A stretch of DNA of 42,070 nt from a virus, in IMG/VR virus record IMGVR_UViG_3300049847_000213, positions 1 through 42,070 of that record; one strand, 5' to 3'. Of the stretch, positions 1,889-29,231 are shown piece by piece (position 1 is the stretch's first letter; the number at the start of each line of letters is the position of its first letter). Under the pieces are notes generated by a model. The model was not told where the DNA came from, did not search any database, and was given only the letters and a program-made list of their open reading frames with translations. The position numbers were made by a program, and so were the translations under genes.

Positions 1889-2791
1889 ATGTCAGACAAC
1901 AAAAATGAGGTGGGGTTTAGTTCGGAGAATGATTTAAAGGTTTTTTTAAATACAAATTATTTAAAACAAATCAAAAACTTTTTTGCAGATGAGGGTAAAG
2001 CATTAAAGTTTATGTCATCCGTGATTGCTGACACTCAGCGCAATCCGAAGCTTTTGGAGTGTACGAAAAGCTCTCTTATCAATTCGTATATGACAATGGC
2101 GCAGATGGGTTTCATGCCCTCTGGTGTATCAGGCGAGGCTTATGTTTTGCCCTACAATAACTCTAAAAAAGAGGGTGACAAATATGTCAAAGTTTTAGAG
2201 GCGCAATTCCAAATGGGCTATCAGGGTCTTGTGACACTTTTCTATCAGGCGGGTGTTGAAAAAATAAGCGCTGCTTTGGTCCGTGAAAAGGATCGGACAT
2301 CATTTGTGAATGGTGATCTTAGGCACGAGGTCGATATAACTCTTTCTAGCACAGAGAGGGGTAAGGCTGTGGGCGCGTATGTGATAGTGACTTTCAGAGG
2401 AAAAGAGAACGTAAAATATATGAACGGTAAGGATATTATTGACCACGCTAAAAGGTTTTCTAAATCTTACGATCCTACGGGCAAATACTCCCCGTGGAAT
2501 CCTGAAAACGACCCAGAGCATTGGATGTGGTTTAAGACCGTACTAAAACAATTCTCTAAGCTATTGCCTAAAAATGAAATAATCAATCGGGCAATCGCGG
2601 AGGACAACAAGGACTCGGTCATCGAGGAGGCGAAAAAACTTAGAGAAAATACCAATCTAAATATGGGTAACTTTTTAGCAGATGGCAAAACTAAACCAAA
2701 AGATGAAAAATCAAACAAAAAAGAGGAAAAAAACGCAGAGGATTTCTCTCAAGAAATCACATATCCCGAAGATCCAACGATCGAAGGATAA
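1889..2791 (+). CDS. recT: RecT-family single-strand annealing protein
   Basis: This 300-residue protein has the hallmarks of RecT: AYVLPYNN at residues 84-91, AQFQMGYQGLVTLFYQAG at 105-122, a GAYV strand at 162-165, and WMWFKTVLKQFSKLLPKN at 212-229. RecT proteins coat single-stranded DNA made by a partner 5'-3' exonuclease and anneal complementary strands during phage recombination and replication. The C-terminal 60 residues are a charged, probably disordered tail. The next gene, which overlaps it, encodes a RecB-like nuclease domain, the expected partner. The leader has no Shine-Dalgarno sequence. Confidence 0.93.
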   Translation: MSDNKNEVGFSSENDLKVFLNTNYLKQIKNFFADEGKALKFMSSVIADTQRNPKLLECTKSSLINSYMTMAQMGFMPSGVSGEAYVLPYNNSKKEGDKYVKVLEAQFQMGYQGLVTLFYQAGVEKISAALVREKDRTSFVNGDLRHEVDITLSSTERGKAVGAYVIVTFRGKENVKYMNGKDIIDHAKRFSKSYDPTGKYSPWNPENDPEHWMWFKTVLKQFSKLLPKNEIINRAIAEDNKDSVIEEAKKLRENTNLNMGNFLADGKTKPKDEKSNKKEEKNAEDFSQEITYPEDPTIEG

Positions 2792-4733
2792 TAAAGGGGA
2801 AATACAAGGCTTTCCTCTCGATCACTACAGCTATTCGTCATTCAATAAGTTTGCGACAAATCCGTTCATGTTTAAAGTGAACAACATTAACGGCGACTAC
2901 TTTGAAACAACATCGAAAGCAAAGAGTGTACTCGGTACCGCTTTGCACAAGGCTATGGAGGCATACTTTGGCGGTGGGGATCACTCCACGCCTGCAGATG
3001 ATGGCGAGGCGATAATGTACGCGCATCAGGTGGGGCTTGATTTTCTGAATGCTTATTCTGACGGACTCATTGAGTGGGATAACATCGTTCCGAATAGAGC
3101 AAAGTTTCAGGAAAGATATGCATCGTGTTTTTTCGGGTATATAAAAGAGCTTGGCTATGGCACAGAAATAAAAGAGATTTTGCTTGTCGAAAAAAGTTTG
3201 AAATATAAGGTTGAGGTTGATGGCAAAGTGTTGCCTGTTCCGCTTAAGGGAATACCTGACCTAGTGTACAGAGATGCTGAGGGTAGAATAAAAATCCGGG
3301 ACCACAAGTTTACAGGCAAGCATTCGGGGGAGGACGACATCGACCCTGCGAAATTAATTCAGGCAGCATTTAACTTTTTTCTTGTGTATGCAGAGCTTGG
3401 CGAACCGCCGTATTCGATAATGTTCTCTGAATATAAAACCACAGAAAATAAAGATAAGACCGCACCGCAGTGCCTAAATTACGAAATGATTTATGGCGAG
3501 ACACCGCTTTTGTTTGAGTTCTTTTATCGAATGTATGAGGACATCACTGATGCGTTGCTCGGTAAGCAAGTATACTTGCCAAACTTTAATGCGTTCTATG
3601 ACAAAGAAGTCGGCATACTCGCTTACATTCACAAGCTCGATGTTGACTCTGTTCGAGAGGCGGAATTTAAGAAAATGAATGTAGACAACATTACTGACTT
3701 TCTAAAAAAGAAAATACAAAAGCGAGGCGCTATGAAAAAGTACCTTGATGTTGTAGCGAATAAGTTTGTTTCTGCATCGACACTTAATTATGAAAATATG
3801 ACAATTCAAGAAAAAATAAAAGCAAAATTAGCGGAGCACGGACTCGGAGTCGAGTATCATTCTATGGTGGTCGGCAGTGCGATTACTCTTTATTGCTATG
3901 AGCCTTCAGTCGGTTTGAAAATGGGAAAGATTGCATCGTTCGTGAAAGATATTGAGCTTGCTACAAAGACTTCAGGCATTCGAATATTGGCGCCGATCGC
4001 TGACTCTGGTCTTATTGGTTTTGAAATCCCGAATAAGGTTAGAACATTCCCGACCGATATGCCAAAGGCAGAAGGATTTAATCTCGCTATCGGTGTCGAC
4101 ATTATGGGTCAGGTGGTGCGGATGGATATTCGAGAGGCGCCGCACATCCTCGTTGCGGGTAGCTCGGGATCTGGTAAGTCAGTATTTTTGCACTCTATCA
4201 TTCGACAGCTTATGACAATCAAAGGTGCGGAGCTACATCTTTTCGATCCGAAGAGAGTCGAGCTTAAAGAATACGAGGGGAGTGTCAGCGAGTATCAAAG
4301 CAATCATCGGGATATAACTATCTCTCTGTCTATGCTCGATAAAGAAATGGAAAAGAGATACGAATTGATGGAGAAAATGAAAATAAAAAATATTGCCGAG
4401 GTGTCGACTATTCCCTACAAGTTTGTGATCATCGATGAGTACGCGGATCTCGCTTTGAAAGAACAGACTGGGCAGTATGTGCAGTCACTCGCGCAAAAAG
4501 GGCGTGCCTGCGGTATCCACGTGATCATTGCAACACAGCGAGCGAGTACGAAAATAATATCGGGAGACATCAAGGTTAACTTCCCTACTAAGGTTGTACT
4601 CAAAATGAGCAAAGAGGTTGATTCACGGGTGATGCTCGATGAGGAGGGGGCAGAGAAATTGCTCGGTAAGGGGGATCTGCTATTCGTTGATGAGTCGGGC
4701 AAGACACAGAGATTACAAGGATTTAATATTTAA
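2682..4733 (+). CDS. Fusion of a RecB-like (PD-(D/E)xK) nuclease with an FtsK/SpoIIIE DNA translocase
   Basis: One open frame of 683 residues. The N-terminal half reads as a RecB-family nuclease: SYSSFNKFATNPF (50-62), GTALHKAME (85-93), GIPDLV with D193, and RDHKF with D207 and K209, followed by a Q-containing helix (LIQAAFNFFLVY). Residues 373-683 read as an FtsK motor: an alpha/beta-type segment (GIRILAPIADSGLIGFEIPN, 432-451), Walker A GSSGSGKS (493-500), Walker B FVIIDEYADL (581-590) and ATQR (617-620). No gamma (DNA-orienting) domain is present. An ATG at 3798 with an A-rich leader could also give the motor alone. Starts at 2682 or 2703 lie inside recT; no later start precedes the nuclease core. 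The likely role is processive end resection to feed RecT, or motor-driven DNA processing. Confidence 0.85.
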   Translation: MAKLNQKMKNQTKKRKKTQRISLKKSHIPKIQRSKDNKGEIQGFPLDHYSYSSFNKFATNPFMFKVNNINGDYFETTSKAKSVLGTALHKAMEAYFGGGDHSTPADDGEAIMYAHQVGLDFLNAYSDGLIEWDNIVPNRAKFQERYASCFFGYIKELGYGTEIKEILLVEKSLKYKVEVDGKVLPVPLKGIPDLVYRDAEGRIKIRDHKFTGKHSGEDDIDPAKLIQAAFNFFLVYAELGEPPYSIMFSEYKTTENKDKTAPQCLNYEMIYGETPLLFEFFYRMYEDITDALLGKQVYLPNFNAFYDKEVGILAYIHKLDVDSVREAEFKKMNVDNITDFLKKKIQKRGAMKKYLDVVANKFVSASTLNYENMTIQEKIKAKLAEHGLGVEYHSMVVGSAITLYCYEPSVGLKMGKIASFVKDIELATKTSGIRILAPIADSGLIGFEIPNKVRTFPTDMPKAEGFNLAIGVDIMGQVVRMDIREAPHILVAGSSGSGKSVFLHSIIRQLMTIKGAELHLFDPKRVELKEYEGSVSEYQSNHRDITISLSMLDKEMEKRYELMEKMKIKNIAEVSTIPYKFVIIDEYADLALKEQTGQYVQSLAQKGRACGIHVIIATQRASTKIISGDIKVNFPTKVVLKMSKEVDSRVMLDEEGAEKLLGKGDLLFVDESGKTQRLQGFNI

Positions 4734-6633: not shown

Positions 6634-7356
6634 ATGGGCTGCCACAGAATGTTCACTCAAAAAATTACCAACTCCGCACGGTTTTTGAAAATGTCACCCT
6701 CTGCTCAGTCGTTATATTTTCATTTAGGGATGCATGCCGATGATGATGGTGTTGTGGAGGCTTTCACAATTATGCAACTCATCAATGCTGCGGAGGACGA
6801 TTTTAAAATACTTGTGGCAAAGTCTTTTATAAAACCTTTGAATGACGATCTTGTGAGCTACATTCTTGATTGGAGAGAACACAATACAATCCGGGCGGAC
6901 CGCAAGATTGACTCTCGTTATAAAGACTTGCTCGTTCAGATTTTGCCTGACGTGGAATTGGTAAAAGCAAAACCGCGATCTGATGTTGAGGATAATAGCA
7001 CTCGTGTTGGGACCGATCAGCCGAGACTCGAGGACCCTAAAATAATAAAACATACGCCAGAGGATATGGAGTGCGTGGATCTGCTCGTTTCTCTTATTAA
7101 AAAGAATAATGAGGAGTGGGATATGAAAGGCAAGCCCGAGAAGTGGGCGGAGGATATAAATAAGTTATTCCGCATCGATGGGCGCTCTTATAAGCAAATC
7201 CAGTTTATGATCAGGTGGACCCAACAGGATCAATTTTGGTCGCAGAACATTTTATCAGCGAGCAAACTTCGGGAAAAGTTTAATGACTTAATCCCGAAAA
7301 TTAAAGCTCAAGCAAATAAACAAAAGGCTCACGAAAACAACACGGTCTTTTCATAA
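6634..7356 (+). CDS. Replisome-organiser-like replication protein (winged helix plus DnaD-like tail)
   Basis: The 240-residue protein has the N-terminal pattern of phage replication initiators: an ARFLKMSPSAQSLYFHLGMH segment (16-35), then ADDDGVV, a helix-loop-helix that resembles the DnaD/replisome-organiser winged helix, and ILDWREHNTIRADR. The C-terminal part ends in FWSQNILSASKLREKFNDL, typical of phage DnaD-like domains that contact DnaC-type loaders. It would bind the phage origin and recruit the host helicase. The start could be 6634 or the ATG at 6649. Its own promoter region holds a perfect DnaA box. Confidence 0.75.
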   Translation: MGCHRMFTQKITNSARFLKMSPSAQSLYFHLGMHADDDGVVEAFTIMQLINAAEDDFKILVAKSFIKPLNDDLVSYILDWREHNTIRADRKIDSRYKDLLVQILPDVELVKAKPRSDVEDNSTRVGTDQPRLEDPKIIKHTPEDMECVDLLVSLIKKNNEEWDMKGKPEKWAEDINKLFRIDGRSYKQIQFMIRWTQQDQFWSQNILSASKLREKFNDLIPKIKAQANKQKAHENNTVFS

Positions 7357-8369: not shown

Positions 8370-8789
8370 ATGAACATAAACGAAAGGATACACTTTTTAA
8401 TACCGGGCAATCAGGAGGATCTAAACGGCAATGCAATACCCTACACCCGAACGACTCAAGGGAGTAAGTGGAGTCCAAAATATCAGCGCTATGGTGCATG
8501 GAAAAACTACGTCATCAAGCACTCGAAACTCAAAGAGGGATTTGATAAGAAAGGCAAGCTTTTAAAGCCGATCGCAATCCCTGAAGGACACAAGGCGGTA
8601 ATGAATATAAAAGCTTTTTATACGGACCACACGCACCCTGACACTGACAATGTGTTTAAGGGAATCGCGGACGCTTTATTTCAAAACGATAAGAAATTGG
8701 CGGGAAGTTTTGACTTTTGGGTCAAGCCGAAAACGGGCGGAATCATCGAGGTTGAGATTTTTTTAATCAAAATTGAAATGCCAAGCTAG
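8370..8789 (+). CDS. rusA: RusA-type Holliday junction resolvase
   Basis: The key segment HTHPDTDNVFKGIADALF (residues 87-104) reproduces the RusA active-site spacing: D91, D93-N94 and K97 correspond to D70, D72-N73 and K76 of the E. coli enzyme. A further acidic residue lies at 107. The 139-residue length fits the family. RusA enzymes cut four-way junctions and resolve branched DNA before packaging. It closes the replication operon, and its last bases form part of the 22-bp inverted repeat. Confidence 0.88.
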   Translation: MNINERIHFLIPGNQEDLNGNAIPYTRTTQGSKWSPKYQRYGAWKNYVIKHSKLKEGFDKKGKLLKPIAIPEGHKAVMNIKAFYTDHTHPDTDNVFKGIADALFQNDKKLAGSFDFWVKPKTGGIIEVEIFLIKIEMPS

Positions 8790-10522: not shown

Positions 10523-11840
10523 ATGCCTGATCAAACAAAAAAAACGATGATGCCAATTGAAAAGCTGACGCTCTGGAAAAGAAACCCGAGAGTGTTGGAG
10601 GAGGATGGTAAAACACGACTCAAAAAACAACTTTTGAAGCTCGGACAATACAAGCCTTTGCTCGTTGTTTTAGAGGATGATCAGGCTATTGTTTTGGGTG
10701 GAAATATGCGACTCACTTGCATGCGCGAGCTTGCTCACGCGGGCAATAAAGATTTTAGTCAGGTGTGGGTTTCTATCATCAATGCACCCGATGAAAAATC
10801 AAAGCTTGAGTACGCGCTTTCGGACAATGACTCGGTTGGAAAATATGACGAGAAGGCTCTCGTTTCAATGGTTGCGGAGATTCCTGATTTTGACATGGAG
10901 GGCTATCACATCGATAGCGGCTACTCTATGGATCTTGAGGAACTTGCTGATAAATATCGGGAGACCGATGAGGACGATTTCGATGCTGATGCTGAGGCGG
11001 GTAAGATTGTAGACCCTATCTCAAAGCAAGGCACTATATGGCAATTGGGCGATCATCGTTTGATGTGTGGCTCTGCGACTTCACTCGAGGACGTTTCAAA
11101 ATTGCTAGGGGGGGGGGGCGAACAAGGTGGATATGGTTTTCACCGATCCGCCTTACAATGTGGACTATTCAGGTAAGGGTAAAAATACATCTAACAAAAT
11201 CCTTAATGACAATATGTCTGAGGATATTTTCAGGACTTTTCTTACGGATACTTTTGCATCTTATCGGACTGCGATGAAAGATGACGGTGCGATCTACGTG
11301 TGCTATGCATCGAGGACTCACCGGGAATTCGAGGACGCTTTGAATGCAAACGGATTCAAAGTAAAAGCTCAGATTATTTGGGTTAAAACTCAGGCATCAT
11401 TCGGATGGGCGGACTACCGTTGGAAACACGAGCCGATTCTTTATTGCTCGGTTGAAGGTAAAAAAGTGCCTTTCTATGGCGACCGAAAGCAGGTCACTGA
11501 ATGGGCGACAAAGCCTACAGACGCGGAGCTTTTGAGGGTTGCACGTCAGGCTCTCGAAGAGGAAAAAAGGGAGGGTACGACAGTGTGGAAATTATCACGT
11601 GAGCAGGGTTACTTACATCCAACTCAAAAGCCTTTAGAATTAATTGAGATTGCATTAAAAAACTCTACTCAGAAAGGTGACAAGGTCCTCGATCTATTCG
11701 GGGGATCGGGATCTACTTTGATGGCGTGTCAGCAAATGGAGCGCATAAACTTCACGATGGAATTGGACCCGAAATATGTTGATGTTGTGAAAGCTCGATG
11801 GGAAAAGTTTACAGGATTGGAGGCTATAAAACTCGCATAA
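10523..11840 (+). CDS. ParB-like domain plus adenine DNA methyltransferase, frame broken at an 11-G tract
   Basis: The first frame (from 10523) has a ParB/Srx-like domain: PIEKLTLWKRNPR, then IVLGGNMRLTCMREL. The second frame, ending at 11840, has the beta-class methyltransferase motifs TDPPYNVDY (motif IV), HPTQKPLELIEIAL and DLFGGSGSTLMACQQ (motif I). The frames part at a run of 11 Gs (11108-11118). With 10 Gs the frame reads LLGGGANKVDMVFTDPP and gives one 438-residue enzyme. As printed, translation stops at 11176 and the methylase is off. This fits either slipped-strand phase variation or an assembly error in the tract. The enzyme would methylate adenine (or N4-cytosine) in phage DNA, probably against host restriction. 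Confidence 0.85.
11108..11118. repeat. 11-G homopolymer inside the methyltransferase gene
   Basis: Eleven consecutive Gs interrupt an otherwise continuous coding frame exactly between the ParB-like domain and the catalytic DPPY motif. One base fewer restores the frame. Runs this long are prone both to replication slippage and to sequencing error. Confidence 0.9.
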
Positions 11841-12739: not shown

Positions 12740-13774
12740 ATGGATGTCATTTCTCTTTTCGATGGTTGTTCATGCGCTCGGCTCGCTTTGAGTCGTGGCG
12801 GTTGGGCTGTAAAAAATTACTACGCATCAGAGATTGACCCGTATGCTATTCAAATATCTAAAAAGAATTACCCCGATATAAAACGGATCGGGGATGTGAG
12901 AAATGTTGAGGTAAAAAATAAGTTTCTATTTTTGCCTAGCAATTATGGATTTATAGGGGACATCGATCTGCTCATTAGTGGCTCGCCTTGTCAGGATCTC
13001 TCTATTGCAAAAAAAGGACGCAAGGGGTTAGAGGGCGAGCGCTCTGGTTTGTTTTGGGAGTATGTTCGAATATTGAAAGAGGTCAAACCGAGATATTTTG
13101 TTTTAGAAAATGTCGCATCAATGCCTGCAGAGGCAAAAGCGATTATAACAAAAACGCTCGGGGTTGAGCCTATTATGATCAATGCATCGCTTGTGTCGGC
13201 ACAGAATCGAAAGCGTTTGTTTTGGACGAATATTCCGGGCGTGACTCTCCCTGAAGATAAAGGCATCGTGCTTAAGGATATTTTACTCGATGGAAACACT
13301 GACGATCTTAAATCACTTTGTGTCACTGCCACCTACTACAAGAAAACAAAGGACGACTATGTCCGAAAAAGTATCGGGCAAATGGTCAGGATTGGCGATA
13401 TAGGCACGAATGCGCAGGCTCACAGGGTTTACTCGCCTGAGGGTAAAAGCGTGGCACTGAGCGCTCTGGGTGGCGGGCAAGGCGCAAAGACAGGACTGTA
13501 TCTAGTGCAGAAAGGGCGCGGAAAGAATAAAGGCGGGGATCATCACGAAAAAAGCCCGACTCTGACCTGCAATTCGTTTGAGCAAAACAATCACATTACT
13601 GACGGGGCAATGCTTAGAAAACTCCACCCGATCGAGTGTGAAAGACTGCAGGGAATGCCTGACAATTACACGGAGGGAGTATCAAATACGCAGAGGTATA
13701 AAATCTGCGGTAATGCGTTCAATGTCGATGTGGTGACGCATATATTATCGTTTATGAAGTTTTATCCAAAATGA
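12740..13774 (+). CDS. C5-cytosine DNA methyltransferase
   Basis: The motifs appear in family order: I (SLFDGCSCARLAL, 5-17), IV with the catalytic cysteine C84 (GSPCQDLS), VI (ENV, 123-125), VIII (QNRKRLFW, 155-162) and X (GNAFNVDVVTHIL near the C-terminus). The 344-residue length suits a single-specificity enzyme. The PCQDLS form and short target-recognition region resemble phage and DNMT3-like enzymes more than Dcm. It would methylate cytosine in phage DNA; no cognate endonuclease is visible, so protection against host restriction is the likely role. Confidence 0.92.
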   Translation: MDVISLFDGCSCARLALSRGGWAVKNYYASEIDPYAIQISKKNYPDIKRIGDVRNVEVKNKFLFLPSNYGFIGDIDLLISGSPCQDLSIAKKGRKGLEGERSGLFWEYVRILKEVKPRYFVLENVASMPAEAKAIITKTLGVEPIMINASLVSAQNRKRLFWTNIPGVTLPEDKGIVLKDILLDGNTDDLKSLCVTATYYKKTKDDYVRKSIGQMVRIGDIGTNAQAHRVYSPEGKSVALSALGGGQGAKTGLYLVQKGRGKNKGGDHHEKSPTLTCNSFEQNNHITDGAMLRKLHPIECERLQGMPDNYTEGVSNTQRYKICGNAFNVDVVTHILSFMKFYPK

Positions 13775-14885: not shown

Positions 14886-15464
14886 ATGAGTGAAACAGCT
14901 ATCATCAAAAGTCAAAAAGCATTTAGGGTGGATACAAGTGTCTACAAAGAGGACGTTTTTAAAAAGTTTGTGCTTTTCTTTTCTCTACCTGATCCTGAAA
15001 AGTGTCAGATGTTTGGTGTAGAGAAGGACCCGATTACTGGTAAAGTAAAAGTACCGACTCAGCAGGATTTTGCTTTGAAGTATGGTCTAGCATTTGAAAC
15101 ATTGTCGCGTTGGAAAAATAGAAAAGATTTTATGGATGCGGTTAACATGGTCCGTAGACAGTGGGGGCGTGAGCGCACTTCGAATGTTATGGCATCGCTC
15201 TACAATCGTTGTTTGAAATACGGCATGGCATACGACATCGAAACCTACCTTGCTTATTTTGATAACTGGAGCCGTACGCAAGTGGTCAAACACGTGCAGG
15301 AGAAGTTTGATGTGGATGATATAAGAACTATTATTAATTCATTGCCTGAGGGCGCACAAAAAGATGCATACGAAAAGCTCGGACAAGTCATTGCAATTGC
15401 AGAAAGTGTTGGAGAAAACACGAAGAGTGAAAGAGATGCTACTGGTGAATCCGCAGACAATTAG
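14886..15464 (+). CDS. terS: Terminase small subunit
   Basis: A 192-residue protein with a helix-turn-helix at about residues 55-85 (TQQDFALKYGLAFETLSRWK), the DNA-recognition feature of small terminase subunits. A helical oligomerisation region follows. It lies directly before, and overlaps by 29 bases, the large subunit. It would recognise the packaging site and load the motor. I chose the ATG at 14886, not 14868, because it follows the A-rich leader and lies beyond the predicted -10 element. Confidence 0.82.
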   Translation: MSETAIIKSQKAFRVDTSVYKEDVFKKFVLFFSLPDPEKCQMFGVEKDPITGKVKVPTQQDFALKYGLAFETLSRWKNRKDFMDAVNMVRRQWGRERTSNVMASLYNRCLKYGMAYDIETYLAYFDNWSRTQVVKHVQEKFDVDDIRTIINSLPEGAQKDAYEKLGQVIAIAESVGENTKSERDATGESADN

Positions 15465-16986
15465 GGAGCGCTTTGGCAACAAGCCGATCACTCTCATGCG
15501 GTTAGTCAGTCCCTCTGTGAAGTTTCCTAAAAAGCTTAGGATGATTTTCTCGTACCTTTGGCTACAGCGTGGTCCTGATAATAAAAAAGCAAATCGTTTC
15601 ATCATCAAGGGTCCGCGAGGAGGTGGTAAAACTCTGCTCGTTGGGGCTGTGGGCTTTGCTAGGTGGCTTTTGCAGTGTAAGTCTGCGGTTGCGATGGGAG
15701 GGTCTATGACGCAGGCACAGAACGTGTATAACTACTTTGCCGGGCATTGCTATGCTCATCACTCTATCACTGAGGGCTTGCCGAAAGAGCCTACTATGCA
15801 CCTTACCGAAAGCGACAAGGGTAATTATTTTAAAGCGGTTGCTGCCTCTCCGAAACAGATTCGAGGTCCGCACCCTGATGATCTCTACATCGATGAGGCG
15901 TGCGAGGCTAAAGACGAGATTATTATGTCAGCGTTGCCGATGGTGTCGTCATCTCCCGATCCTCTCGTGGTGATGACTTCTACTTTTCATAAAATATTCG
16001 GATACTTTCAGGAGACTTGGGACGATGCATTAAAGCTCGGGTACACTCGTTTGTCGTGGGATATTTTTGATGTGTGCAGAACATTCAGCCTTGATATTTT
16101 TGACGACCCTGATCTTAATCGGGATATTCCTGATTTGGATCAGCTAAAGAAAAGAGTCGGTAATCGGCGCGGTGATCCTGAAGGGTGGGTGCGAATAGAA
16201 AACATAATACAGGCGTGGAGAGAAAAACCATCACTCGATTGGTTTGATGTTGAGTACATGGGAACGCGCCCTAGTGCATCTGGGCTTGTGAATGACCCTG
16301 CCGATGTTGATGCCTGCACGATTGTGGATCTCAAAGGTTATGGGTATAAAAAAGGTGCGACTGTCATTGGTGGTTTGGACTGGGGATACTCTGGTATGAC
16401 GGCTTGGGTTAATTTAATGCAGCATACGAATGAAACAAAAATACAAATCAACAACCGCAACTATTCACAGGTGGCTCTTGATGTTATAATAAAAGACATA
16501 GTAGAAGACGTTGAGAAGTACGGCATCGAATATATTTATGCCGACTCCGCAGGAAAGTTTGAGAACGTTGCATTGCAAAATGCACTCACAAATAAATTCA
16601 GGCGAACAGATTTTAAATGCGTAGTTATCGAAGTAGTTTTTTCAAAAGAAAAGTTTGGAACGGCGGGACCTGATGGAGCGATGTCAATGTTTGGAAATTA
16701 TCGCGCTCACATTCAGAGACACAAGCTAAAGATTCCTAAGACTCAGCCTGAGGCAATATGGCAACACAAACGATACAAGTATCAAAAGAATAGTGATAAG
16801 CCTGAGAAAAAAGACGATCACATTCCTGATGCTACGATGTGTTGTTTGAAACACTGGGAGCTTGGCAGACATTCGTATGGTATTCCGAAAGGAAACTTAA
16901 AGGAGGAGGTCGCAGAGTATCGGGGCGAGGAGGTCGTTGATGACTACTCCCCATTCACTGCCGGGCTAATGGATGAAATATTTTAA
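15436..16986 (+). CDS. terL: Terminase large subunit
   Basis: A 516-residue packaging motor. The ATPase shows Walker A GPRGGGKT (about 59-66) and Walker B LYIDEA (about 149-154). The C-terminal RNase H-like nuclease shows GGLDWGYSG (about 312), YADSAG (about 367) and DHIPDATMCC (about 460), which carry the metal-binding acidic residues. It cuts concatemeric DNA and pumps it into the prohead. The ATG at 15436 is preferred over a candidate at 15364 lying deep inside the small-subunit gene; it is preceded by GAAAGAG, one of the few purine-rich, Shine-Dalgarno-like leaders here. Confidence 0.93.
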   Translation: MLLVNPQTIRERFGNKPITLMRLVSPSVKFPKKLRMIFSYLWLQRGPDNKKANRFIIKGPRGGGKTLLVGAVGFARWLLQCKSAVAMGGSMTQAQNVYNYFAGHCYAHHSITEGLPKEPTMHLTESDKGNYFKAVAASPKQIRGPHPDDLYIDEACEAKDEIIMSALPMVSSSPDPLVVMTSTFHKIFGYFQETWDDALKLGYTRLSWDIFDVCRTFSLDIFDDPDLNRDIPDLDQLKKRVGNRRGDPEGWVRIENIIQAWREKPSLDWFDVEYMGTRPSASGLVNDPADVDACTIVDLKGYGYKKGATVIGGLDWGYSGMTAWVNLMQHTNETKIQINNRNYSQVALDVIIKDIVEDVEKYGIEYIYADSAGKFENVALQNALTNKFRRTDFKCVVIEVVFSKEKFGTAGPDGAMSMFGNYRAHIQRHKLKIPKTQPEAIWQHKRYKYQKNSDKPEKKDDHIPDATMCCLKHWELGRHSYGIPKGNLKEEVAEYRGEEVVDDYSPFTAGLMDEIF

Positions 16987-24761: not shown

Positions 24762-27700
24762 ATGAGAAAAAAACTAATTGCTTTTATACTCGCGACCGCT
24801 TTAGCTCTCCCTCTTATTGCTCAGGGTGCTGCGTTTAAAACAAATCAAATAATCGACCCTGTTGGTGCGGGTGTTGTTTTTTCAAATGGGGTCGGGACTT
24901 CTACTCTCTACACTGTCGCAACTTCATCGCTTGGACTCATCACTACGAATGTGGCGGAGGGTACTAATCTATATTGGACAAACTCTCGCTTTGATACTCG
25001 ATTCGCTTTAAAAACAACGGACGATCTCACTCAGGGATCTACAAATAAATACTATGCGACTTCTCTTTTCAACACTGATTTTGCTACAAAAAGCACGAGT
25101 AATTTAACTGAGGGTAGCAATCTTTATTTTACGAATGCTCGGGCTATCTCTGCTCTCACAGGTCAAAACCTTTCAATCTTTGCGGGCTTTGGTACGCAGT
25201 TTTACAATTTCTTTCACGCTACTACAACGGACGCCTTGAGTGAGGGATCTAGCAATCTATACTTCACAAATGCCCGCGTGAATTCGTATATTTCTGCCTC
25301 TACAACGATTCCAAAGACCTACTCGGCAAATACATGGACTGGGCTAAATACTTTCACTGGCGGGGTTACTATCGGCTCTCTCAATGGTCCTCTGCAGGCG
25401 AATAACGGGGTGGTTTCGGCTACTACTTCGATTGGTATTCGTTATGGTGGCACTGGCACAACTTCTCCGCCTACCTACGGGCAAATGCTCATCGGCAATA
25501 GTGCGGGTGGTTATGACTATGTCGCATCAAGCACTCTCGGAGGCGGTGGGGGTGGTATGGCAATCGGAGGATCTATAACTTCGGCGACTGCAGGATCTAT
25601 TTTGTTCGCGGGTCCTTCAGGAGTTTTGGCACAAGACAATTCAAATCTCTTTTTCAATAGTACAAACAGAAGGCTTGGTATTCAGGTAGCATCGCCTCTC
25701 GCCTCTCTGCACGTGGATGCAATTTATGGGGACTCGGTTGATGCGCCTGCATCACTCGGTGCGGTCCTCACTTTAGATACTGCGATTGATCGTCCTACGA
25801 GCGTTTCGGCTACTCAGATAGACGCACCTACTAACCCAAGCATTGGGGTTTCTCTCACTCAAATTGATTATGTAAATGGTGGGTCTACTTCACAAAATAC
25901 TGGTGCATCAGGCTATACCGCAAACTGCCAACAAATTGATTATCGAATTTACGGGTTTAGAAATGTGAATGGTGTTCGGGTGGTAAATCCAAATTATTAC
26001 AGCACTTCATTTACTGATACAATCTGCGATTTCTCTACTCCTTTCGGCGTGGATATTTCTAGTATCGCTACATCGCTCGGGAATGTTGACGGATACATTA
26101 TTGAAAGACAGGAGGCGGGAGGTGGATTTAATAATGCGGTAGATATTGGACTCACATCGTCTTATACTGATTCAGCTTTCTCAAACACTGATATTTTCGA
26201 AGTATCCGCATACGCAGAAAGCGGAGCATCTTGGTACGGGTTTGTCGGTCAGTATGTAAATATAAACGGCACATCCTATCGATCGAGCTACGCAACAAAT
26301 AGCACGGCTGACTCGAATCAAGGTCAGTATTTAGCTCTTACTATTTCAGGGTGGAGTTTGACAAATGACGGTTTTATTGTTCAGCACCACAATGGATATT
26401 ATTTCGATATTGGTGGCAACACAACATATTATGATTGGGGTCAAACTGCAGGATCATTGGGTGGGGATTATGGCACTTTTTCAAGTATAGCTTTTCCGGG
26501 ATTTAATACTTCGATCACTGCATCAAGTGGTCTTACACCAGATGCGATTGCTTACGGTGGAGGTTCGTTTACGGCTGACGGTTCTACTTGGACCATTGAG
26601 ATTTGGGATTACAGAACAAACCCAGTAGATGGATTGAAATACTATGTAGGTTCTCCTGCCGGGACTTCTTACGGAGGGGATGATAGCAGTTTCAATCCAA
26701 TGACATTCAACGGAAACTTCACCCCGAGTGACGGCACAGGTGCGGTGGTAAAACTATTACAGAACGGTACGGTTGTTGCGGCTACTGATGTTGGGGCGGG
26801 AACATCTTGGTCTTTCAGCTCACCATCATCTGATATAACTACATCTCTATCAATCGGATCATACACAGGTATTACTCGTGATTTTTCTACTTATGGTTTT
26901 GTAACATCTCCATCTACAAAATACAGTGTACTTCACAGGGACAATTCTTTTACTGACACAAATCCTGCAGACGGGTATCTCGTTCAGCTTACTATTTCGG
27001 GCGCAGGATCAGCAACGGGAGAAAAAACTTTGCAGACAATAAACGGGTCAAATACTCACGTCACTGCAGTCACTGGCACAGGGACTTTTTATCTCGTGTC
27101 AGGTGGTACTGATGGAGATTTAACAATCACTCCGAGTACTTCAGGATTCTTGGCGAACGGGTCCAACTTGAGTAAAACCTACCACGCATTCTCTACAAAA
27201 AGTATCAGCGGGACCACTGTCTATTCTGCAACTTATGCGAGTGCCACTACAACCGATCCAAACGATGGGCTTTATTACAATGTGGACCTTACGATCGGAT
27301 CTGTTTCGGGTGCTACTTACCGAATAAATAAAGTGGGTGTTGGGTGGGAGGATTCGGCATCAACATCTTTCACTGATTCAACTGTAAAAACTTGGGCGGG
27401 GTCATCTACAATCACACCTACACAATCACTCGGTAACACAGCAATATTTGATCGTGCGAATGCCTCTGATACTTCTCTCTCAAACGTTCTTATTAGAAAT
27501 ACAACAAATAATGCTTTCTCAACTTTCTTGGAGTTTCAGGGATTACAAGGCGGATCTAGTTATACTTCGCTTGGGAAAATAGGATTTAAATCGAGCGGTA
27601 ATTTGGCTATCGTTTCAAATGGTGCGGTAGGCTCGGGTGCTATTGATTTCGGTCCTCTTACTACCCCGTATGTTAGGTTTGGTGGAGGGTCAGGTACTGC

Positions 27701-29231
27701 GGGTAATATATTTAACGTTCAGGCTAGTGCCTCTCGAGATACTACATTTCTCGCGGGAACAAGTGGAACTCTCGCAATATTTGATACAGCACTCAATACT
27801 GTTTTATTTGGAAAAACTTATGGCTCTTGGAATTACGACCCTACTGCTGCGGTTGGTATTCAACCGAAAGATACAGGCGATGTGGGGCTTGTTATTTACC
27901 CTGCTCCGGGCGCGGGGAATACACAACCAGTATTTCTCGTAAAAAATAGCTCAGCGACACAGCTTGCGGGAATCGATACGATCGGCTCGGGATGGTTTGG
28001 TACTTCAGCAAGTAGTGATGCTCGATTAACTCTCGGATCGCCAAATAGTAGCCTAGCAAACTTGCGATTTACGAGTGGTGCAAATATGCCATCTACGCCA
28101 GTGACTGGTGGGGTTTCAATGTCAACTTTTGAGGCACCATATGCAACGGACGGAGCTTTGTATTTCACAAATAATTCGAGTGTGACAAGGAGAATACAAA
28201 CGGCTCTTTCAACAGGAGAAAGTGCGAGATTTATTTATGTCGATGGGTTCGGAAACATGACGACTCTAAATAACCCTATTCAATTTGCATCAGGTATCAT
28301 CACTTTCAGCTCTGCGCAAACTGTACTTTTTCAAAATGGGTATTCAGTAGGATCAGGAAAAGATGTGGTGATGGGGTCAGGCGCTCGTTTCATTGGAGGA
28401 CTTAGAATGCTCTACGCATCTCGAAGTACTACAGGTTCATTGAATGTTACAAACAACTCGCCTTTTACAACATTCACAGGATCTACTGCATCGCAGACTC
28501 TTACTCTGCCAACCGCCGCATCTATCAGTGGAACAGTGTTTGAAATAGCGAATGTGGCAACGGTGAGCGTGACGGTAAATACCACATCATCTCAAACTAT
28601 AAATCTCGGAACGGGTACTGTCACTTCTCTAGTACTTCAGCCGGGCGATCGCATAAAGTTTATCGCTAACGCATCATCAGGTTGGGAGGCGACTTGGGTT
28701 CAGAATATTACTACGGTCGCGCGTGGGGGTACGGGAGTATCTAGCTTTGCACAAGGTTGGTTAAGCTCTGACGGTACTTCTCTCACAGCATCAACTTCAC
28801 CAACAGTAAATTACATCACTGCCACATCTACGACTGCCACATCTACTCTGCAGAATACTCAGGTTAATCAATTGAAAGTCGGTACTCTCTCGGGCTTTGT
28901 GAAAGCGGTTAGTGGTTATCTCACTACGGCTCTCGTAAACCTTACAAGCGATGTTACAGGCACATTGCCAGTGGCAAACGGTGGAACGGGTCAGACTACG
29001 CCTGTGGTGGTGTCAGGAGCGTTCTCACAAGTGGGTACTGCGACTACGGTATTTACGGTCACGATCGGGGCGACTCAGGCGAACACAAACTATGAAGTGA
29101 ATGTCACACCTACATCTATTCTTTCGGCAGCATATTTCTACGTGAATAATAAAACTACTACGACTTTCGATGTGGTGTATCTCGCAGGGCTTACTGGTAC
29201 GGTCACATTCGATTGGGCATTATTTAATTAA
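24762..29231 (+). CDS. Giant tail fibre / surface adhesin with a signal-peptide-like N-terminus, 1489 aa
   Basis: By far the longest gene. It begins with a Sec-like signal (MRKKLIAFILATALALPLIA, then QGAA). Four NLYFTNAR-type repeats follow at about 24950-25290 (EGTNLYWTNSRFD, GSTNKYYATSLFN, EGSNLYFTNARA, EGSSNLYFTNARV). GGTG motifs appear near both ends (RYGGTGTTSPPTYGQ, ARGGTGVSSFAQGW, VANGGTGQTT). The middle (about residues 320-900) consists of beta-sandwich-like segments with recurring SYxATY...DGxYY patterns. The C-terminus carries an ATSTTATST run. It is most likely a receptor-binding fibre for long-range host attachment. The signal peptide is unexpected for a virion protein. Confidence 0.75.
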   Translation: MRKKLIAFILATALALPLIAQGAAFKTNQIIDPVGAGVVFSNGVGTSTLYTVATSSLGLITTNVAEGTNLYWTNSRFDTRFALKTTDDLTQGSTNKYYATSLFNTDFATKSTSNLTEGSNLYFTNARAISALTGQNLSIFAGFGTQFYNFFHATTTDALSEGSSNLYFTNARVNSYISASTTIPKTYSANTWTGLNTFTGGVTIGSLNGPLQANNGVVSATTSIGIRYGGTGTTSPPTYGQMLIGNSAGGYDYVASSTLGGGGGGMAIGGSITSATAGSILFAGPSGVLAQDNSNLFFNSTNRRLGIQVASPLASLHVDAIYGDSVDAPASLGAVLTLDTAIDRPTSVSATQIDAPTNPSIGVSLTQIDYVNGGSTSQNTGASGYTANCQQIDYRIYGFRNVNGVRVVNPNYYSTSFTDTICDFSTPFGVDISSIATSLGNVDGYIIERQEAGGGFNNAVDIGLTSSYTDSAFSNTDIFEVSAYAESGASWYGFVGQYVNINGTSYRSSYATNSTADSNQGQYLALTISGWSLTNDGFIVQHHNGYYFDIGGNTTYYDWGQTAGSLGGDYGTFSSIAFPGFNTSITASSGLTPDAIAYGGGSFTADGSTWTIEIWDYRTNPVDGLKYYVGSPAGTSYGGDDSSFNPMTFNGNFTPSDGTGAVVKLLQNGTVVAATDVGAGTSWSFSSPSSDITTSLSIGSYTGITRDFSTYGFVTSPSTKYSVLHRDNSFTDTNPADGYLVQLTISGAGSATGEKTLQTINGSNTHVTAVTGTGTFYLVSGGTDGDLTITPSTSGFLANGSNLSKTYHAFSTKSISGTTVYSATYASATTTDPNDGLYYNVDLTIGSVSGATYRINKVGVGWEDSASTSFTDSTVKTWAGSSTITPTQSLGNTAIFDRANASDTSLSNVLIRNTTNNAFSTFLEFQGLQGGSSYTSLGKIGFKSSGNLAIVSNGAVGSGAIDFGPLTTPYVRFGGGSGTAGNIFNVQASASRDTTFLAGTSGTLAIFDTALNTVLFGKTYGSWNYDPTAAVGIQPKDTGDVGLVIYPAPGAGNTQPVFLVKNSSATQLAGIDTIGSGWFGTSASSDARLTLGSPNSSLANLRFTSGANMPSTPVTGGVSMSTFEAPYATDGALYFTNNSSVTRRIQTALSTGESARFIYVDGFGNMTTLNNPIQFASGIITFSSAQTVLFQNGYSVGSGKDVVMGSGARFIGGLRMLYASRSTTGSLNVTNNSPFTTFTGSTASQTLTLPTAASISGTVFEIANVATVSVTVNTTSSQTINLGTGTVTSLVLQPGDRIKFIANASSGWEATWVQNITTVARGGTGVSSFAQGWLSSDGTSLTASTSPTVNYITATSTTATSTLQNTQVNQLKVGTLSGFVKAVSGYLTTALVNLTSDVTGTLPVANGGTGQTTPVVVSGAFSQVGTATTVFTVTIGATQANTNYEVNVTPTSILSAAYFYVNNKTTTTFDVVYLAGLTGTVTFDWALFN

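Follow-up and report, generated by a model that had tools for sequence, protein, structure and literature searches.

A PD-(D/E)XK nuclease fused to an FtsK motor, a candidate exonuclease partner of RecT/Bet annealing proteins in phages probably infecting Patescibacteria

Directly overlapping recT in a phage genome lies a single gene that joins a RecB/RecE-type nuclease to the alpha and beta domains of an FtsK/SpoIIIE motor, and an identical architecture, again in one frame, is present in 50 further viral contigs at 30-62% identity, making 51 in all. The fusion is real, neither an assembly error nor unique to one genome. We consider it probable that the protein serves as an ATP-powered exonuclease partner of a phage single-strand annealing protein (SSAP), in the position otherwise held by RecE, YqaJ or lambda exonuclease. 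More tentatively, it may represent a resection machine that arose once, built on an FtsK ring and not on an SF1 motor, in which tethered RecE-like nucleases would pass single-stranded DNA straight to RecT or Bet; this machine could have spread through diverse phages, probably of Patescibacteria, while swapping its annealing partner, with a host lineage later keeping the nuclease and losing the motor.

The stretch analysed here, which we call the window, is the entire IMG/VR virus record IMGVR_UViG_3300049847_000213 (42,070 bases), and its head and tail genes are of the siphovirus type (large terminase, portal, major head protein and tape measure). Table 1 collects the features under study. The window also contains two DNA methyltransferase genes (11127-11840 and 12740-13774; N6_N4_Mtase; PHROG 116) and, between the head and tail genes, a 1489-aa open reading frame (24762-29231) with no match in Pfam or PHROG.

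Table 1 Features of the fusion gene and its surroundings in the window.
Feature	Position	Strand	Basis or remark
RecT single-strand annealing protein, 300 aa	1889..2791	+	Pfam RecT 7e-28, PHROG 148 2e-49, TIGR00616 8.7e-31
Nuclease-FtsK fusion gene, 683 aa	2682..4733	+	Single open frame; 110-base start overlap with recT
Variable N-terminal extension, often Lys/Arg-rich, over recT end	2682..2810	+	Residues 1-43
PD-(D/E)XK nuclease domain (H89, D193, D207, K209, Q227)	2811..3581	+	Residues 44-300; PDDEXK_1, model, fold matches
Nuclease-motor linker, partly low confidence	3582..3791	+	Residues 301-370; pLDDT <50 at 348-368
FtsK alpha domain	3792..4034	+	Residues 371-451; Pfam FtsK_alpha
Internal ATG (Met373), unsupported as a second start	3798..3800	+	Homologue conservation; upstream sequence
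FtsK beta (RecA-like) motor domain, no gamma	4077..4730	+	Residues 466-683; Pfam FtsK_SpoIIIE; 2iut fold match
Walker A GSSGSGKS (493-500)	4158..4181	+	G493, G496, G498, K499, S500 in 46/46
Walker B FVIIDEYADL (D585/E586)	4422..4451	+	D585, E586 in 46/46
DnaD/O-like helicase loader (replication setting)	6634..7356	+	PHROG 8489 4.3e-47
RusA-like Holliday junction resolvase (recombination setting)	8370..8789	+	PHROG 6537 3.4e-16
Large terminase	15364-16986		

As the initial annotation had it, the gene is one unbroken frame without a stop; there is no sign of a lost stop at the junction between nuclease and motor, and the frame is continuous in the homologues too. Both halves match their own Pfam profiles, each far above the cut-off: PDDEXK_1 (1.2e-10, residues 49-230), FtsK_alpha (4.8e-13, residues 371-451) and FtsK_SpoIIIE (1.4e-25, from residue 466). 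The residues originally named in the RecB-type nuclease (D193, D207-x-K209 and Q227) and in the motor (GSSGSGKS, FVIIDEYADL and ATQR, the last at 617-620) are correctly placed, while H89 of the nuclease motif had been overlooked. The N-terminal extension, which differs in length among homologues, carries 15 Lys/Arg vs. two Asp/Glu and is modelled at pLDDT <50 over residues 1-25, and the length of the linker varies by clade. A motor-only form had also been envisaged, starting at the internal ATG. We reject a conserved internal start at this codon, as the position is Met in just 20 of 46 homologues and is not preceded by a Shine-Dalgarno-like sequence.

Structure prediction agrees with the profile matches. 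The AlphaFold2 model of the whole chain has a mean pLDDT of 77.6, with a weak linker at residues 348-368, and the predicted motor superposes on FtsK (2iut) with a Z-score of 34.6 over 312 residues. Alpha and beta domains, Walker A and B motifs and a sensor Gln place this half in the FtsK/SpoIIIE family. It differs from cellular FtsK chromosome translocases in that the nuclease replaces the N-terminal membrane domain and there is no gamma domain for KOPS or XerCD. The structure matches listed for the whole model were motors, so the nuclease was folded and searched separately. This separate model (pLDDT 92.3, pTM 0.89) is closest to AdnA (Z 16.4), followed by E. coli RecE (Z 15.8; 3h4r, 198 residues, 18% identity), AddB (Z 13.9) and Dna2 (Z 13.6), and the H...D...D-x-K...Q motif together with a RecB/RecE-type fold identifies a RecB-type PDDEXK_1 enzyme. 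Across the nuclease half, cysteine occurs in at most 11 of 43 sequences at any column; a cluster of the Cas4/AddB Fe-S type, with its four conserved cysteines around the nuclease core, is unlikely because no conserved cysteine set exists.

An initial scan of viruses with the window protein as sole query, which reaches close relatives only, gave no match. The first two further copies came from a RecT search of viral contigs and the rest from profile searches with the fusion, which yielded 46 contigs including the window (a few cut at the contig end); five more were retrieved when the nuclease half was the sole query. Two of the 43 fullest copies can share as little as 30% identity. H89, D193, D207 and K209 are retained in all copies covering them and Q227 in 43 of 45; K499, D585, E586, R608 and Q619 are present in 46 of 46, leaving the catalytic residues of both halves intact. 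All 43 full copies stop 3-9 residues past an RLQG motif and thus have no gamma domain, bearing out its absence as first noted. In a tree of the motor halves, those of 44 fusions are set apart together by one branch (SH-aLRT 99), a topology consistent with a single origin of this half. The nuclease is absent from the loci of all 122 other FtsK homologues examined (42 from phages and 80 cellular).

We also asked whether the two halves occur as separate genes, as the initial annotation had allowed. Every homologue found is one frame: a nuclease-only scan of viruses gave 20 loci, none split into separate genes (new loci were checked directly), and every nuclease relative in viral contigs is fused, including those from the nuclease-only search. 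In GenBank phages the fusion was not found, the FtsK half alone giving matches of about 35% and the nuclease half two weak ones. An artefactual origin, whether from a lost stop running two genes together, from misassembly or from chance, has practically no probability left, since no point in its favour was found and a single unbroken frame recurs in 51 contigs down to 30% identity.

The most consistent feature of the gene is its neighbour. Upstream of the fusion, and on its strand, 44 of the 46 contigs encode an SSAP, the remaining two being truncated there by the contig edge. The five contigs retrieved last, with the nuclease half, have an SSAP as well (5/5), giving 49 of 51 in all. The chain of queries began at RecT and could favour RecT-linked members, a point against the exonuclease-partner reading, although contigs added later came from searches with the fusion or the nuclease half alone. 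The same models detect no SSAP near unfused FtsK controls (0/34 phage and 0/80 cellular, 0/114 together). The link between fusion and RecT proposed from the window alone is supported. In 28 contigs of the 46-contig set the fusion overlaps the SSAP gene or lies within 20 bases of it. Counting against the exonuclease-partner reading, 16 of the 44 contigs that have the SSAP upstream show 0.2-2.4 kb of intervening DNA. The SSAP position is occupied by at least three divergent types of RecT/Bet while the fusion persists (PHROG 148 RecT; PHROG 2449/Bet-like; PHROG 561/4171 RecT; Bet-like PHROG 252/2780). One locus (L285:1425-3892) has the reverse order, with a Bet-like annealing protein downstream of the fusion. 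Immediately downstream of the fusion, L063:8100-8432 and L011:8917-9246 encode a small protein containing the helix-turn-helix of DnaA domain IV (Bac_DnaA_C).

An exonuclease other than the fusion is not recognisable in these genomes. YqaJ is absent from all 48 fusion-bearing records searched for it, and in the 39 records with a PDDEXK_1 match the profile hits once per record, always the fusion, with no second nuclease of this family. The strongest argument for an exonuclease role of the fusion comes from a related phage-like contig in a Patescibacteria bin (G219:C2), which has six recognisable proteins in common with the window at up to 39% identity. One of its genes is 38% identical to the RusA-like resolvase, and its RecT gene is followed by one for a YqaJ exonuclease, i.e. 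the slot appears to have been exchanged. The same contig encodes a 591-aa open reading frame that, from reading of its sequence, is a putative HerA-type ATPase (G219:C2:19644-21419; L264/L265).

How might such an enzyme work? In the mechanism that we infer, from its activity and hexameric state to the direction of pumping, the strand polarity and the hand-over to RecT, the FtsK alpha/beta part would form a hexameric ring on linear dsDNA ends arising from phage replication or breaks and, having no gamma domain, would require no orienting DNA sequence. ATP hydrolysis would pull the duplex through the ring toward its N-terminal (alpha) face; nuclease domains of the RecE/AdnA type, held there by flexible tethers, may cut and leave long single-stranded tails for a RecT or Bet-like protein to coat and anneal. 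SpoIIIE exports DNA toward its N-terminal side, and pumping toward N-terminal nucleases is proposed by analogy with SpoIIIE and HerA-NurA. Two further considerations weigh against this reading. Phage SSAP partners normally work independently of ATP, which leaves the benefit of a motor unaccounted for. In addition, the nearest biochemical analogue, HerA-NurA of T. kodakarensis, cuts both strands and leaves no 3' overhangs (PMC12977600), so that a pump-nuclease need not resect.

The latter result makes a two-strand shredder the main rival: the fusion would processively degrade dsDNA, destroying DNA of the host or of competing phages and recycling nucleotides. HerA-NurA follows the same logic of a hexameric FtsK/HerA-family pump with a nuclease that cuts both strands exonucleolytically (PMC12977600), the defence protein DndH combines FtsK/HerA domains with a restriction nuclease (PMC10853773), and models of the defence ATPases SspH and mad8 match the motor half of the fusion. 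We nevertheless regard this as unlikely, given the constant pairing with several types of annealing protein, the presence of an SSAP with no other recognised exonuclease, and YqaJ in the same slot of the related phage. Of the roles suggested in the initial annotation, resection, specifically for an SSAP, has the strongest backing from gene context; removal of host DNA stays tenable, and dimer or concatemer handling gained no specific support. For the last of these, the pump would move replicated phage DNA while the nuclease trims its ends before packaging. The FtsK family is known for handling chromosome dimers, and many phages carry unfused FtsK-like genes; on the other hand, a gamma domain is missing from every full copy, the window has its own large terminase, and the fusion gene sits among recombination and replication genes, away from those for packaging, all of which makes the role improbable. 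We give similarly little weight to a motor that remodels or clears duplex (protein removal, annealing or branch migration) beside a nuclease working as a conventional exonuclease of the RecE kind. FtsK motors translocate rapidly along dsDNA (PMC7321959), and motorless relatives of the nuclease on Patescibacteria chromosomes keep all catalytic residues, indicating that it can exist alone; however, all viral relatives found are fused and the Walker residues are invariant, which argues that both activities are selected together.

These chromosomal relatives bear on the hosts of the phages. Searched with a profile of the nuclease half, 3 of 380 Patescibacteria genomes and 17 of 197 genomes from a single order contain stand-alone relatives about 275-300 aa long; at 1e-15 the profile has no match among 249 Pseudomonadota, 249 Bacillota or 198 Bacteroidota genomes, the phyla being those in the record titles of the central genomes. 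In a rooted tree, for which the outgroup is distant, 18 cellular nuclease genes are nested within the viral nucleases (supports 93/97 and 89/97). The Patescibacteria nucleases in question (L227-L229, L235-L249), close relatives of the viral half, are 275-300 aa long and chromosomal, with their catalytic residues kept. Such nesting suggests that they were acquired from a phage and that the motor was lost, and we tentatively view these proteins as host-captured, nuclease-only descendants of the phage enzyme on the strength of the tree. RecT is present in 7 of the 380 Patescibacteria genomes, in none with an adjacent fusion. The hosts are likely Patescibacteria, as we infer from the stand-alone relatives and from G219:C2. 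No full-length fusion was found in the cellular genomes searched; a general scan of cellular contigs was filled with ordinary FtsK genes and is uninformative on fusions.

SSAP-paired exonucleases are usually seen as small and ATP-independent, and resection powered by a motor is ascribed to SF1 helicase-nucleases. If the proposed role is correct, a hexameric dsDNA pump acts at the exonuclease step of SSAP recombination, raising the question as to how a ring that holds duplex yields single strands for RecT. The fusion offers a compact, one-gene test system, may supply useful recombineering pairs, and bears on Patescibacteria phages, whose biology is poorly known.

Compared with known systems, the fusion and its SSAP probably represent a variant SSAP-exonuclease module of what are probably phages of Patescibacteria, and an FtsK-nuclease fusion with RecT/Bet is apparently undescribed. 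FtsK/HerA-nuclease pairs are known from defence and archaeal repair, and none with RecT/Bet in phages was found in the literature covered, to which subscription papers and preprints did not belong; the original claim of novelty for RecT systems therefore holds for this literature, with a prior description still possible. RecE, Red alpha and YqaJ are stand-alone, ATP-independent exonucleases. As in RecE-RecT, Red alpha-beta and YqaJ-RecT, an exonuclease gene adjoins a RecT/Bet family gene and the nuclease fold matches RecE, but here the nuclease shares its polypeptide with an FtsK alpha/beta motor. With AdnAB, AddAB and RecBCD the fusion shares a RecB-family nuclease, closest to the AdnA fold, and an ATP motor for DNA ends; it differs in having a predicted hexamer-forming FtsK-family dsDNA translocase in place of an SF1 helicase (the Pfam motor match is of FtsK type only) and in having no conserved Fe-S cysteines in the nuclease half. 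HerA-NurA likewise combines an FtsK/HerA superfamily pump with a nuclease acting on DNA ends (PMC12977600, PMC9960219), as separate proteins with a HAS-barrel ATPase and another kind of nuclease in the NurA subunit, whereas the fusion carries a PDDEXK_1 nuclease of the RecB family and a true FtsK motor with an alpha domain on one chain. DndH-type defence proteins, in which FtsK/HerA domains are joined to a nuclease (PMC10853773), and SspH ('HerA-FtsK capture') also hold nuclease and ATPase in one polypeptide; these are large, multi-domain proteins with restriction-type nucleases in Dnd/Ssp operons, unlike the 683-aa, two-domain phage protein beside RecT, which matches SspH in its motor half only. 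Finally, UvrD-Cas4 helicase-nuclease fusions (pfam12705) similarly unite a PDDEXK_1 family nuclease with a motor and have a single origin (PMC5704561), with the difference that their partner is an SF1 helicase and their context is defence.
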